From the NCBI RefSeq assembly GCF_003390915.1, contig NZ_QMEM01000003.1:124001-188000 (forward strand): a stretch of 64,000 nt of DNA, in the 5' to 3' direction. A program made the translations under genes and the position numbers. Within the stretch, counting starts at the first letter, position 1. Each line of letters begins with the position of its first letter. Shown here piece by piece: positions 54,612 to 57,583 of this stretch. The notes beneath the pieces were generated by a model that saw only the letters and a list, made by a program, of their open reading frames with translations, was not told where the DNA came from and did no database searches. The stretch comes from Lewinella sp. IMCC34183. GTDB lineage: Bacteria > Bacteroidota > Bacteroidia > Chitinophagales > Saprospiraceae.

Positions 54612-55385
54612 ATGATTACCTCCAACTACGTCAAATCGAAAAAGCAGTATAAGGTCTCCTTCGAGCTGTCCCCGGAGCGGGTCGGCAAGGATCGCGACGT
54701 CCGCGTACTAGGTTCCTTCAACGACTGGAGCTGGGAAGACGGCCTTAAACTCAAGTCCGGCAAGCAGGGCTACACCGGCGCTACCCAACTGCCCGCCGGG
54801 CACTACCAGTTCCGCTACCTGGTCGACAAGCAGGAGTGGCACAACGACGATCACGCCGAAGCCTACACCGACAGCGGTCACGGTACCACCAACTGCTGCT
54901 TCTCCCTGGAGCAAGTAGAGGAAAAGGCCGCGCCCAAGAAAGCCGCCGCCAAGAAGCCCGCCGCTAAAAAATCCGTTGCCAAGGCAACGGCGGACACCAT
55001 CGAGTCCGCTACCTCCGCTCCCGCCACCAAGCCGGTCGTGACCCCGGAGAAAAAGGCCGCGGCCAAGAAGCCCGCCACCAAAAAGCCGGCTGCCAAGAAA
55101 ACCGCCACCCGCAAGGCCGCCGCCAAGAGCAAGGGTGACGACCTGAAGAAGATCGAAGGCATCGGCCCGAAGATCGCCGGCCTGCTCAACGAGGCCGGCA
55201 TCAATACCTACTCCGACCTCGCGAAGGCCAAGGAAAAGCAACTCGCCGACGTGCTGCAGAAAGCCGGGGCCCGCTTCCGCCTCGCCAAGCACGACACCTG
55301 GCAGGAGCAAGCCAAACTGGCCGCCGACGGCAAGGTAGACGAGCTCAAAAAACTGCAGGACCAGCTCAAGGGCGGCCGCAAGTAA
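54612..55385 (+). CDS. CBM48 / histone-H1-like linker / helix-hairpin-helix fusion protein
   Basis: 257 residues from the ATG at 54612. Residues 1-95 form a CBM48/AMPK-type glycogen-binding domain: YKVSFELSPERVGKDRDVRVLGSFNDWSWEDGLKLKSG...LPAGHYQFRYLVDKQEWHNDDHAE, with the Trp pairs expected for binding glucan. About residues 100-175 are a Lys/Ala/Pro-rich tract with AAKKPAAKK-type repeats, like histone H1 or bacterial HC1/AlgP tails. The last ~80 residues (DLKKIEGIGPKIAGLLNEAGI...KLAADGKVDELKKLQDQLKGG) are a HhH/DUF4332-like domain, as on many Bacteroidota proteins including extended ribosomal L21. The neighbour is glgB. Function is unknown; a link between glycogen and nucleic acid or another polyanion is inference. 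Confidence 0.85.
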   Translation: MITSNYVKSKKQYKVSFELSPERVGKDRDVRVLGSFNDWSWEDGLKLKSGKQGYTGATQLPAGHYQFRYLVDKQEWHNDDHAEAYTDSGHGTTNCCFSLEQVEEKAAPKKAAAKKPAAKKSVAKATADTIESATSAPATKPVVTPEKKAAAKKPATKKPAAKKTATRKAAAKSKGDDLKKIEGIGPKIAGLLNEAGINTYSDLAKAKEKQLADVLQKAGARFRLAKHDTWQEQAKLAADGKVDELKKLQDQLKGGRK

Positions 55386-55420
55386 GCCCGGACCTCCACA
55401 TCCGACGTACATCAACCCTG

Positions 55421-55455
55421 AATCCGGGTCGCCTGTGGGTGGCCCGGATTTTTGT
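55421..55455 (+). terminator. Rho-independent terminator of the CBM48-H1-like gene
   Basis: AATCCGGGTCGCC (55421-55433) pairs with GGTGGCCCGGATT (55438-55450), with two G-T pairs, and is followed by TTTTG. It comes 36 bases after the stop. Confidence 0.75.
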
Positions 55456-55458
55456 ATT

Positions 55459-55497
55459 GGCCCCACATCGGATGTCCCCGACATCCGATGTGGGGCC
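55459..55497. repeat. Perfect 18-bp inverted repeat built on ACATCGGATGT
   Basis: 55459-55476 is the exact reverse complement of 55480-55497, with a CCC loop. Each arm contains the 11-bp element (55465-55475 and 55481-55491). A near copy (ACATCCGACGT) lies at 55398-55408. The hairpin stands between the terminator and glgB. Confidence 0.85.
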
Positions 55498-55591
55498 CGG
55501 GTCGGAAGTTGGCGGGTAGCAAGAACTACGGTATGGAATTAACATCCCATGCCTTTTCCCGTTACCACAACTCATTCCAACCTTAAAATCC

Positions 55592-57583
55592 ATGCCGTCC
55601 GTGCCATCATCCGTTACTGCCTATTCCCGTTTCACCGACTACGACATCAATCTTTTTCGCGCCGGCAAGAACTTCCGCATCTACGATAAGCTGGGAAGCC
55701 ACGTCATCGAGGTGGACGGCAAGAAGGGGACCTACTTCGCCGTCTGGGCCCCGAGCGCCAAGGCGGTCAGCGTGATCGGTGATTTCAATTCCTGGGACCG
55801 CACCCAGCACCCGCTTAATCCCCGCTGGGACAGCAGCGGTATCTACGAGGGCTTCATCGAGGGCGTCGAAAGCGGTGCCATCTATAAGTACGCCATCGAA
55901 GCACAGAGCGGTGACTGGCTGGAAAAGGGCGACCCCTACGCCCGCCTGTGGGAGACCCCCCCGAAGACCGCCAGCATCGTATGGGATACCTTCTACGAGT
56001 GGGAGGATGAGGACTGGATGAAAAACCGCTACCAGCATAACGCCATCGACCGCCCCTACTCGGTCTACGAGGTGCACCTCGGCAGCTGGAAGAAGAACGA
56101 AAAGAACGAAAGCCTCAGCTACCGCGAGCTGGCCACCGACCTCGTGGAGTACCTGCAGAAGATGAACTACACCCACGTGGAGTTCCTGCCGGTGATGGAG
56201 CACCCCTACTTCCCCAGCTGGGGCTACCAGATCACAGGCTACTTCGCCCCCTCCAGCCGCTTCGGCGGTCCGCAGGACTTCATGTACCTCGTGGATAAGC
56301 TGCACGCGGCCGGCATCGGCATCATCCTCGACTGGGTTCCCAGCCACTTCCCCAACGACGCCCACGGCCTGGCACAGTTCGACGGCACCCACCTCTACGA
56401 CCACGCCGACCCACGCAAGGGCTTCCACCCCGACTGGAAGAGTGCCATCTTCAACTACGGACGCAATGAGGTACGCTCCTTCCTGATCTCGAACGCGCTC
56501 TTCTGGCTCGACCGCTACCACATCGACGGACTGCGCGTAGACGCCGTAGCCTCGATGCTGTACCTCGACTACAGCCGCAAACAGGGCGAATGGATCCCCA
56601 ACCAGTACGGCGGCAACGAGAACCTCGAGGCCATCGACTTCATCCGGGAATTCAACGAGATGGTCTACCGGGAATACCCCGACACCATGACCATCGCCGA
56701 GGAAAGCACCGCCTTCAGCGGCGTGAGCCGCCCCACCTACGTAGGGGGCCTCGGTTTCGGCCAGAAGTGGATGATGGGCTGGATGCACGATACCCTGGGC
56801 TACTTCAAGAACGACCCCGTGCACCGGAGCTACCACCACGGCGAGCTTACCTTCTCGCTGGTGTACGCCTTCAGCGAAAACTTCATGCTGCCGCTGAGCC
56901 ACGATGAGGTGGTACACGGCAAGGGACCCATCATCGACCGGATGCCCGGCGACGAGTGGCAGCGCTTCGCCAATATGCGCCTGCTTTACGGATACATGAT
57001 GACCCACCCGGGCAGCAAGCTCAACTTCATGGGCGGCGAATTCGGACAGAGTACCGAATGGAGCATCGAACGGGGCATCGACTGGAGCCTGACCCAGTAC
57101 AAGCCGCACGCCACGCTGCAGGAGTACGTCGCGAAACTGAACGATATTTACCGAAACACCACCGCCCTCTACGAGTATGCCTACGATTCGCAGGGATTCG
57201 AGTGGATCGACATCGGCGATCACCAGAACAGCGTACTCAGCTACCTGCGCCGGGGCAAAGACGAGCAGGACGTAATGGTAGTGGTCCACAACTTCACCCC
57301 TGCCGTCCGCACGAAATACCGCGTAGGCGTACCCTTCGAAGGCACGTACGAAACGGTGATCAATAGCGACGACGAGAAATTCGGCGGCACCGGCAACTAT
57401 ACCCAGGAGACCGTTGCCTCGGCTCCCCAGGAGTGGAACGGCCGGGCCAATCACATCGAACTTACCCTGCCGCCCCTGGCCACCATGGTATTCCGCCTAC
57501 GCCAGGAGGGCAAAAAGCAGGAAAAGAAAGCGACCAAGGCATCGGCCGCCAAGCCGAAGGCCAAAGCCGCCAAGAAGAAGTAG
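55592..57583 (+). CDS. glgB: 1,4-alpha-glucan branching enzyme with H1-like C-terminal tail
   Basis: 663 residues. An N-terminal CBM48 (GTYFAVWAPSAKAVSVIGDFNSWDRTQHPL) is followed by the GH13 barrel with HVEFLPVMEHPYFPSWGYQITGYFAPSSRFGGPQDFMYLVDKLH, nucleophile Asp317 (LRVDAVASM), acid/base Glu370 (TIAEEST) and Asp438 (LSHDEVVHGKG). The spacing 53 and 68 equals that of E. coli GlgB. The enzyme makes alpha-1,6 branches in glycogen. The last 24 residues are a polycation (KKQEKKATKASAAKPKAKAA...), not usual for GlgB and similar in style to the linker of the preceding CBM48 protein. Confidence 0.96.
   Translation: MPSVPSSVTAYSRFTDYDINLFRAGKNFRIYDKLGSHVIEVDGKKGTYFAVWAPSAKAVSVIGDFNSWDRTQHPLNPRWDSSGIYEGFIEGVESGAIYKYAIEAQSGDWLEKGDPYARLWETPPKTASIVWDTFYEWEDEDWMKNRYQHNAIDRPYSVYEVHLGSWKKNEKNESLSYRELATDLVEYLQKMNYTHVEFLPVMEHPYFPSWGYQITGYFAPSSRFGGPQDFMYLVDKLHAAGIGIILDWVPSHFPNDAHGLAQFDGTHLYDHADPRKGFHPDWKSAIFNYGRNEVRSFLISNALFWLDRYHIDGLRVDAVASMLYLDYSRKQGEWIPNQYGGNENLEAIDFIREFNEMVYREYPDTMTIAEESTAFSGVSRPTYVGGLGFGQKWMMGWMHDTLGYFKNDPVHRSYHHGELTFSLVYAFSENFMLPLSHDEVVHGKGPIIDRMPGDEWQRFANMRLLYGYMMTHPGSKLNFMGGEFGQSTEWSIERGIDWSLTQYKPHATLQEYVAKLNDIYRNTTALYEYAYDSQGFEWIDIGDHQNSVLSYLRRGKDEQDVMVVVHNFTPAVRTKYRVGVPFEGTYETVINSDDEKFGGTGNYTQETVASAPQEWNGRANHIELTLPPLATMVFRLRQEGKKQEKKATKASAAKPKAKAAKKK

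Follow-up and report, generated by a model that had tools for sequence, protein, structure and literature searches.

A candidate glycogen tether joining an AMPK-type carbohydrate-binding domain, a Lys/Ala/Pro tract and a helix-hairpin-helix module beside GlgB in Lewinella

A stretch of 64,000 nt from Lewinella sp. IMCC34183 (Saprospiraceae; NZ_QMEM01000003.1, positions 124,001 to 188,000 of the forward strand; hereafter the window) contains a gene for a 257-residue protein, P0001, in which an AMPK-beta-type glycogen-binding domain is followed by a Lys/Ala/Pro polycation and a C-terminal helix-hairpin-helix (HhH) module. Computational analysis revealed this domain make-up, conserved residues at the glucan site, an HhH half homologous to that of PhaH, a protein of polyhydroxybutyrate (PHB) granules, and conservation of the fusion beside the branching enzyme GlgB throughout the genus. 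It is proposed, at about an even chance, that P0001 is a PhaH-like, two-headed tether for alpha-glucan (glycogen) particles, with glycogen in place of PHB; the protein would then bind glycogen, bind DNA and position the granules. A preliminary description of the same DNA had recognized a CBM48 carbohydrate-binding module (CBM), a Lys/Ala/Pro tract and a C-terminal HhH domain in this one protein, and all three parts were confirmed (PF16561, residues 102-173 and HHH_5, respectively).

The P0001 gene (54612..55385, + strand; ATG at 54612, stop at 55385) is an open reading frame (ORF) with two domains above cut-off, AMPK1_CBM and HHH_5, and with single-ORF orthologs. Its first part, residues 1-101 (54612..54914, + strand), is defined by the PF16561 score, the predicted fold and invariant residues. 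AMPK1_CBM (PF16561), a predicted glycogen-binding domain related to CBM48, matched residues 28-94 with 39.7 bits against a curated cut-off of 26.8. In an AlphaFold2 model based on 33 sequences, for which 32 of the 33 CBM+HhH proteins were aligned (L126, whose start is unclear, was omitted), block means of the predicted local distance difference test (pLDDT) were 93-98 in the CBM and 48-73 in the tract, and over most of the HhH module they were 80-93. By Foldseek, the CBM part resembled the AMPK beta1 domain 1z0m_B, with a template modelling (TM) score of 0.86 (by target length), a root-mean-square deviation of 1.7 and 26% identity. Moreover, W39, R68, W76 and N94 were invariant in 33 of 33 and 17 of 17 aligned sequences (two overlapping sets), and they align with W100, K126, W133 and N150 of AMPK beta1, the glycogen contacts of that subunit, with K126 replaced by R68. 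The position of AMPK L146, aligned by eye, is unconserved and holds H in P0001. An antisense open frame of 258 residues (54708-55484, - strand) lies over the gene. It is probably a spurious effect of GC-rich codons, since the forward frame has two scored domains and orthologs, and such a frame can oust the real gene when only the longest ORFs are called.

The second part, residues 102-173 (54915..55130, + strand), is a Lys/Ala/Pro polycation with a net charge of +15, delimited by composition and predicted from its low pLDDT to be disordered. Its AAKKP/PAAKK character, pointed out earlier, was borne out, with two copies of each motif in an irregular tract of 72 residues. The HC2 profile gave 16.9 bits, below its cut-off of 40, and a long tandem KPAA-type repeat domain, as in the histone H1-like tails of PhaF and AlgP, was looked for in P0001 and was not found. 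The third part, residues 174-257 (55131..55382, + strand; net charge +5), is a basic HhH module supported by PF14520 and by a match to the PhaH model. HHH_5 (PF14520) matched residues 176-214 with 33.4 bits (curated cut-off 27), the glycine hairpin is kept, in that none of I181, E182, G183, G185 and K187 varies among the 33 sequences, and the HhH families of RadA and DNA polymerase IV were matched weakly, below cut-off. For comparison, 464 kb of the own genome was sampled, made up of the window and 20 further stretches, a non-random choice in that 6 of the 20 were sited on HhH or CBM genes. Among its 717 unfiltered ORFs with 90 residues or more, only three have a segment of 40 residues with at least nine Lys and eight Ala, namely P0001, the adjoining GlgB and one other protein with the HhH module. 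Because so few of the sampled ORFs hold such a tract and two of the three are neighbours, the paired polycations are out of the ordinary, as had been remarked before.

The HhH half links P0001 to PhaH, a Caulobacter crescentus HhH phasin that is reported, in the relevant section of a review, to bind DNA and organize PHB granules (PMC13052382). The NCBIfam PhaH model NF045508 matched residues 115-237 of P0001 with 47.8 bits, and the HhH stretch alone (residues 171-257) matched model positions 168-231 of 234 with 37.8 bits (E 2.2e-9); because this stretch matches by itself, the similarity reflects homology and not Lys/Ala composition. The own genome has two matches to the model, of which P0001 is the better. 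Two of 14 control genomes gave matches (Caulobacter vibrioides and Methanocaldococcus jannaschii), one of which, presumably that in Caulobacter, exceeded the cut-off, while none of 296 genomes of the phylum had a true PhaH over the cut-off and 33 had partial matches. A full-length PhaH match with the PHB-binding N-terminus was sought in P0001 and was absent. On the proposed reading, the protein works like PhaH yet is not a PhaH, because it does not have this N-terminal feature.

The fusion was then compared across 21 genomes of the genus, comprising the own genome and 20 others searched. It occurs as a single ORF in all 20 of the latter, and in all 21 GlgB lies downstream on the same strand and the polycation is present (38-92 residues, net +12 to +28). 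Within the genus the linker drifts in sequence, with a mean identity of 36% compared with 67% in the CBM and 80% in the HhH module, but keeps its composition. Elsewhere in the family, at least 7 of 16 genomes have the fusion, with GlgB closely 3' of it in two (G027 and G033) and about 4 kb off in G035. Among the best 80 of at least 541 relatives ranked by similarity to P0001, CBM and HhH share one frame at 33 loci, and the record labels of these fusions include Saprospiraceae, Chitinophagaceae, Niabella, Maribacter, Croceitalea and Arcicella. When genomes were drawn from the whole phylum, 226 of 395 matched the CBM-HhH profile somewhere, and among the matches listed, five genomes (own included) had a single match spanning both domains. 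Unfused CBM proteins of about 100 residues were common in the same draw, and one stands in tandem with the fusion at each of L065, L023, L106, L111 and L112.

In the proposed mechanism, the N-terminal domain would hold branched alpha-1,4-glucan, the disordered Lys/Ala/Pro arm would extend outward from it, and the arm and the basic HhH module would together bind DNA regardless of its sequence. Glycogen particles may in this way be dispersed over the nucleoid and split between daughter cells, not piled at a pole, by analogy with PhaH and PHB in Caulobacter, and such a tether could have arisen through domain swapping. On the available sequence evidence, the CBM-HhH protein is best read as tethering a glucan to a polyanion: the glycogen-contact columns do not vary, all 21 genus genomes retain the polycation, and the HhH module is homologous to that of PhaH. 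With regard to the glucan itself, GlgE (176 bits), GlgB, GlgP (857 bits), GlgX and a pullulanase were found over cut-off in the own genome. The biochemistry of GlgE is established and provides the basis for deducing a route to branched alpha-glucan, and a GlgE-type route is the likely source. A 332-residue frame of the own genome (L178; C34:896858) resembles starch synthase (GT5) models over their N-terminal part alone and is apparently a short form.

The preliminary description had known of no system of this kind, a statement that has to be withdrawn: PhaM, PhaF and PhaH are described tethers between PHB granules and the nucleoid (PMC13052382), and AlgP is associated with polyphosphate granules and needed for their even spacing, according to the portion of the report that describes it (PMC9239181). 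The kind of tether is known for other polymers, and only the glucan cargo is new. PhaH resembles P0001 in combining a granule-binding N-terminus with a homologous HhH C-terminus, and its model match takes in the P0001 tract from residue 115; it differs in the N-terminus, which is reported to bind PHB and in P0001 is an AMPK-type CBM that leaves the beginning of the PhaH model unmatched. PhaF, PhaM and AlgP likewise join a granule-associated part to a histone-like or Lys/Ala/Pro DNA-binding part in one protein, but they have other cargo and are set apart by their descriptions, which in the cited excerpts mention no HhH; AlgP has 25 perfect KPAA repeats (PMC9239181, in part), whereas the tract of P0001 is shorter and irregular. 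The glycogen-binding domain of AMPK beta shares the fold and the aligned glycogen-site residues, but belongs to a eukaryotic kinase subunit with no polycation or HhH match. The unfused short AMPK-type CBM proteins of Bacteroidota have the same N-terminal domain, in several relatives in tandem with the fused form, but are without polycation and HhH. Finally, the L21, S2 and NuoE fusions (NF008915, NF008966 and NF009040) and Dinoroseobacter protein-O have a homologous C-terminal HhH module, but carry other N-terminal partners, and in the 29 ribosomal cases measured the module is acidic or near-neutral.

No glycogen-nucleoid tether or glycogen-binding HhH protein was found among the open-access literature matches listed, and the word glycogen is absent from the main text of both a 2025 review of granule proteins (PMC13052382) and the AlgP paper (PMC9239181). 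In an Escherichia coli csrA mutant, glycogen collects at the old poles and was inferred to exclude the chromosome, as stated in the pertinent part of that study (PMC4836754), so heavy glycogen storers may need to position their glycogen. PHB and polyphosphate granules already have described nucleoid-binding spacing proteins, and P0001 provides a concrete candidate gene for glycogen. It also ties glycogen positioning to an HhH domain whose role on other machines is termed obscure (in the excerpt of PMC12079452), and suggests that one tether acquires a different storage polymer as cargo when its domains are swapped.

The neighbouring gene encodes GlgB, the 1,4-alpha-glucan branching enzyme (P0002, 663 residues; 55592..57583, + strand; ATG at 55592, stop at 57583), which scored 963 bits against NF008967 (equivalog cut-off 577). 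Its GH13 catalytic triad, D317 (GLRVD), E370 (IAEE) and D438 (SHDE), is complete, in agreement with the preliminary description, as is the existence of a 24-residue Lys/Ala tail: the alignment covers residues 12-639, and residues 640-663 (57509..57580, + strand) lie beyond it. This tail, recognized by composition and by tailed relatives, is the only C-terminus among the 717 own-genome ORFs with at least eight Lys and five Ala in its last 24 residues. Tails were read in 30 of 41 genomes with a GlgB match, their length being counted from the residue aligned with residue 636 of the window enzyme (the GlgB at L058 runs past its contig end, so its tail length is a minimum). Lys-rich tails of 14-32 residues, nine of them Lys/Ala and one Lys/Ser, were present in 10 of the 21 genus genomes and absent (1-4 residues) in the other 11, and basic tails occurred at 5 of 9 loci examined outside the genus. 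Given these proportions, the tail is a recurring yet dispensable, lineage-specific extra of uncertain meaning, and it may be a later addition.

That the tail lies outside the system altogether, as a drifting C-terminal extension with a solubility effect at most, is the likelier explanation of it. Nine of the ten tailed GlgBs of the genus form one well-supported clade, the tenth standing separately, and all 11 tail-less genomes retain the CBM-HhH neighbour; on the other hand, such tails are very rare in the own-genome sample, yet this one is found beside another polycation, and they recur outside the genus. In the one clade the tail may, on slender grounds, recruit the branching enzyme to the same scaffold as P0001. 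The common purpose previously suggested for the two polycations is thus doubtful, because the tail is missing in 11 of 21 genomes and, in many genomes, terminator-like hairpins or other genes lie between the two reading frames. Close relatives without the tract or the tail had been named in advance as counter-evidence: the tract is kept throughout the genus, whereas the tail fails in these 11 genomes.

The HhH half is a mobile module carried by many proteins. At the other 47 of the 80 best loci, 53 CBM-less module proteins were scanned, of which 29 were ribosomal (15 S1, 5 L21, 4 L27, 3 L17, 1 S2 and 1 S16); further partners included two NrfD, one COX1, one ActD, one GH57 and two P-domain proteins, among others, in a tally that, being drawn from the best-ranked relatives, is not an unbiased census. 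In the charge comparison, the partial sequence L172 was dropped and ribosomal proteins were defined by their N-terminal signature, with totals identical to the Pfam tally. The net charge of the HhH module lay between +2 and +11 in every one of the 33 CBM fusions and between -10 and +1 in all 29 ribosomal proteins, without overlap, and ranged from -5 to +7 among 22 other partners; sequences of one class are related by descent, which makes this a difference between classes and not 62 independent events. The 45 residues of linker set the classes apart less sharply, with a net charge of at least 8 in 23 of 33 CBM fusions and in 3 of 29 ribosomal proteins. The charge of the HhH module thus tracks its partner, which would not be expected of an inert decoration. 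The split fits nucleic-acid binding by the glucan-binding class and points to some other activity in the ribosomal class.

These distributions bear on two other explanations of P0001. In the first, the basic arm and HhH module bind RNA, ribosomes or polyphosphate, so that P0001 would tie glycogen to translation or else to a granule of mixed content. The abundance of ribosomal members agrees with this, as does a bL27-like protein (identified by eye) with the same module in the own genome, and Lys-rich tails can bind any polyanion, AlgP on polyphosphate granules being an example (PMC9239181, in the section concerned). Nevertheless, the ribosomal HhH modules are near-neutral or acidic, unlike those of the glucan-binding class, and the characterized homologue PhaH is reported as DNA-binding (PMC13052382, in the section on it), which makes this explanation rather unlikely. 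In the second, which seems less likely still, the HhH module is a tag for protein-protein or self-association, perhaps through basic-acidic pairing, and P0001 cross-links glycogen or gathers enzymes with no nucleic acid involved. The module does occur on parts of large assemblies (ribosomal proteins, NrfD/ActD/COX1 and NuoE-like proteins, and a photosynthetic reaction-centre subunit described in part of PMC12079452), and both basic and acidic versions exist. Against it stand the invariant glycine hairpin, the weak, below-cut-off matches to RadA and DNA polymerase IV, and again the precedent of PhaH as excerpted (PMC13052382). Chance or a compositional artefact is ruled out by the count of three tract-bearing ORFs in 717 and by the PhaH match of the HhH stretch alone.

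A broader and more tentative generalization would treat linker and HhH module as a portable anchoring tag on granules, ribosomes and respiratory and photosynthetic complexes in several phyla. Its basic form on glucan binders (CBM, GH57) would then serve glycogen positioning and partition, and charge variants would select different scaffolds. For the reaction-centre subunit, the function of the matching domain is called obscure in the accessible part of the source (PMC12079452).

Several observations weigh against P0001 being a PhaH-like glycogen tether. Its whole-protein PhaH score of 47.8 bits compares with a cut-off of 250, only positions 115-231 of 234 of the model are matched, and the L21 and NuoE fusion models match the HhH stretch a little better than the PhaH model does. 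No GlgC, full-length GlgA or GT3 synthase was found over cut-off in the own-genome profile searches, so that glycogen production has to be deduced from GlgE. The presence of an HhH module alone is no proof of tethering, because most of its carriers are other proteins, more than half of those scanned being ribosomal; to this extent the tethering idea of the preliminary description falls short, whereas for the CBM-HhH protein as a whole it gains from the evidence given above. In 10 of the 33 CBM fusions the net charge of the linker falls below 8. The linkers of the five L21 fusions are likewise basic (net +5 to +15), so a basic tract before the HhH module is not peculiar to glucan proteins. Some relatives outside the genus have a short or poor tract (15 residues and net +3 in G027; 26% Lys plus Ala in G028). 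Adjacency to GlgB is limited as well: a GlgB-like ORF was found in the flanks of 7 of the 33 CBM-HhH loci, four from the genus and only 3 of the 29 others (some contigs are short). The synteny proposed as a check thus holds in 21 of 21 genus genomes and rarely beyond, and the GlgB neighbourhood is a trait of this lineage, not of the fusion overall.

In addition, the P0001 gene and glgB look separately transcribed, as judged from the intervening DNA. A terminator-like hairpin of 14 pairs, found by a consensus scan, lies between them (55420..55451, + strand), although the region has five such sites against a shuffled mean of 4.7. Hairpins of this type occur in 13 of 21 intergenic gaps of the genus, and in 12 of the 13 they reach 14 pairs or more (counts for the gaps carry no shuffled control), and an ORF of at least 100 residues on the opposite strand lies between fusion and GlgB in 9 of 21. 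These gap hairpins and intervening ORFs argue against a shared transcript, and an operon of the two genes was considered and found unsupported.

The module was also observed in a variety of other contexts. The own genome encodes four proteins with it, P0001 and three others named by eye: the bL27-like protein and two coiled-coil proteins, one a membrane protein in which HhH occurs twice, the other bearing a Lys/Ala tract. Ribosomal L27, L21, L17, S1, S2 and S16 proteins with the module (including L077, own genome C56) often have an acidic HhH, and a bL27-like protein at L033 has three copies; no paper on L27 or L21 with HhH was found in an open-access literature search. Respiratory-complex proteins with NrfD, ActD and COX1 domains carry it at L152, L162 and L148 (loci assigned by eye). 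At L028, L154 and L159, adjoining genes all end in the module, one with a P-domain (proprotein-convertase) and the others coiled-coil or Lys-rich by eye. In a search of 72,556 plasmid records, five had the module, four from Riemerella (three annotated as L21) and one from Shinella. In Shinella sp. PSBB067 (L208), an HhH-bearing protein that is NuoE-like by eye precedes a small protein of Lys/Ala linker and HhH. A protein of Bacteroidetes HyVt-532 (L133:2226-3014) has a helical N-terminus before a Lys/Ala linker and a basic HhH module; the N-terminus is phasin-like by eye, with no Pfam match there, and the protein is possibly a Bacteroidota counterpart of the PHB type. A second glucan-related fusion, from an uncultured Chlorobi (L164:2693-4438), joins a GH57 domain to a Lys-rich linker of 45 residues (net +18) and a basic HhH module (+5).

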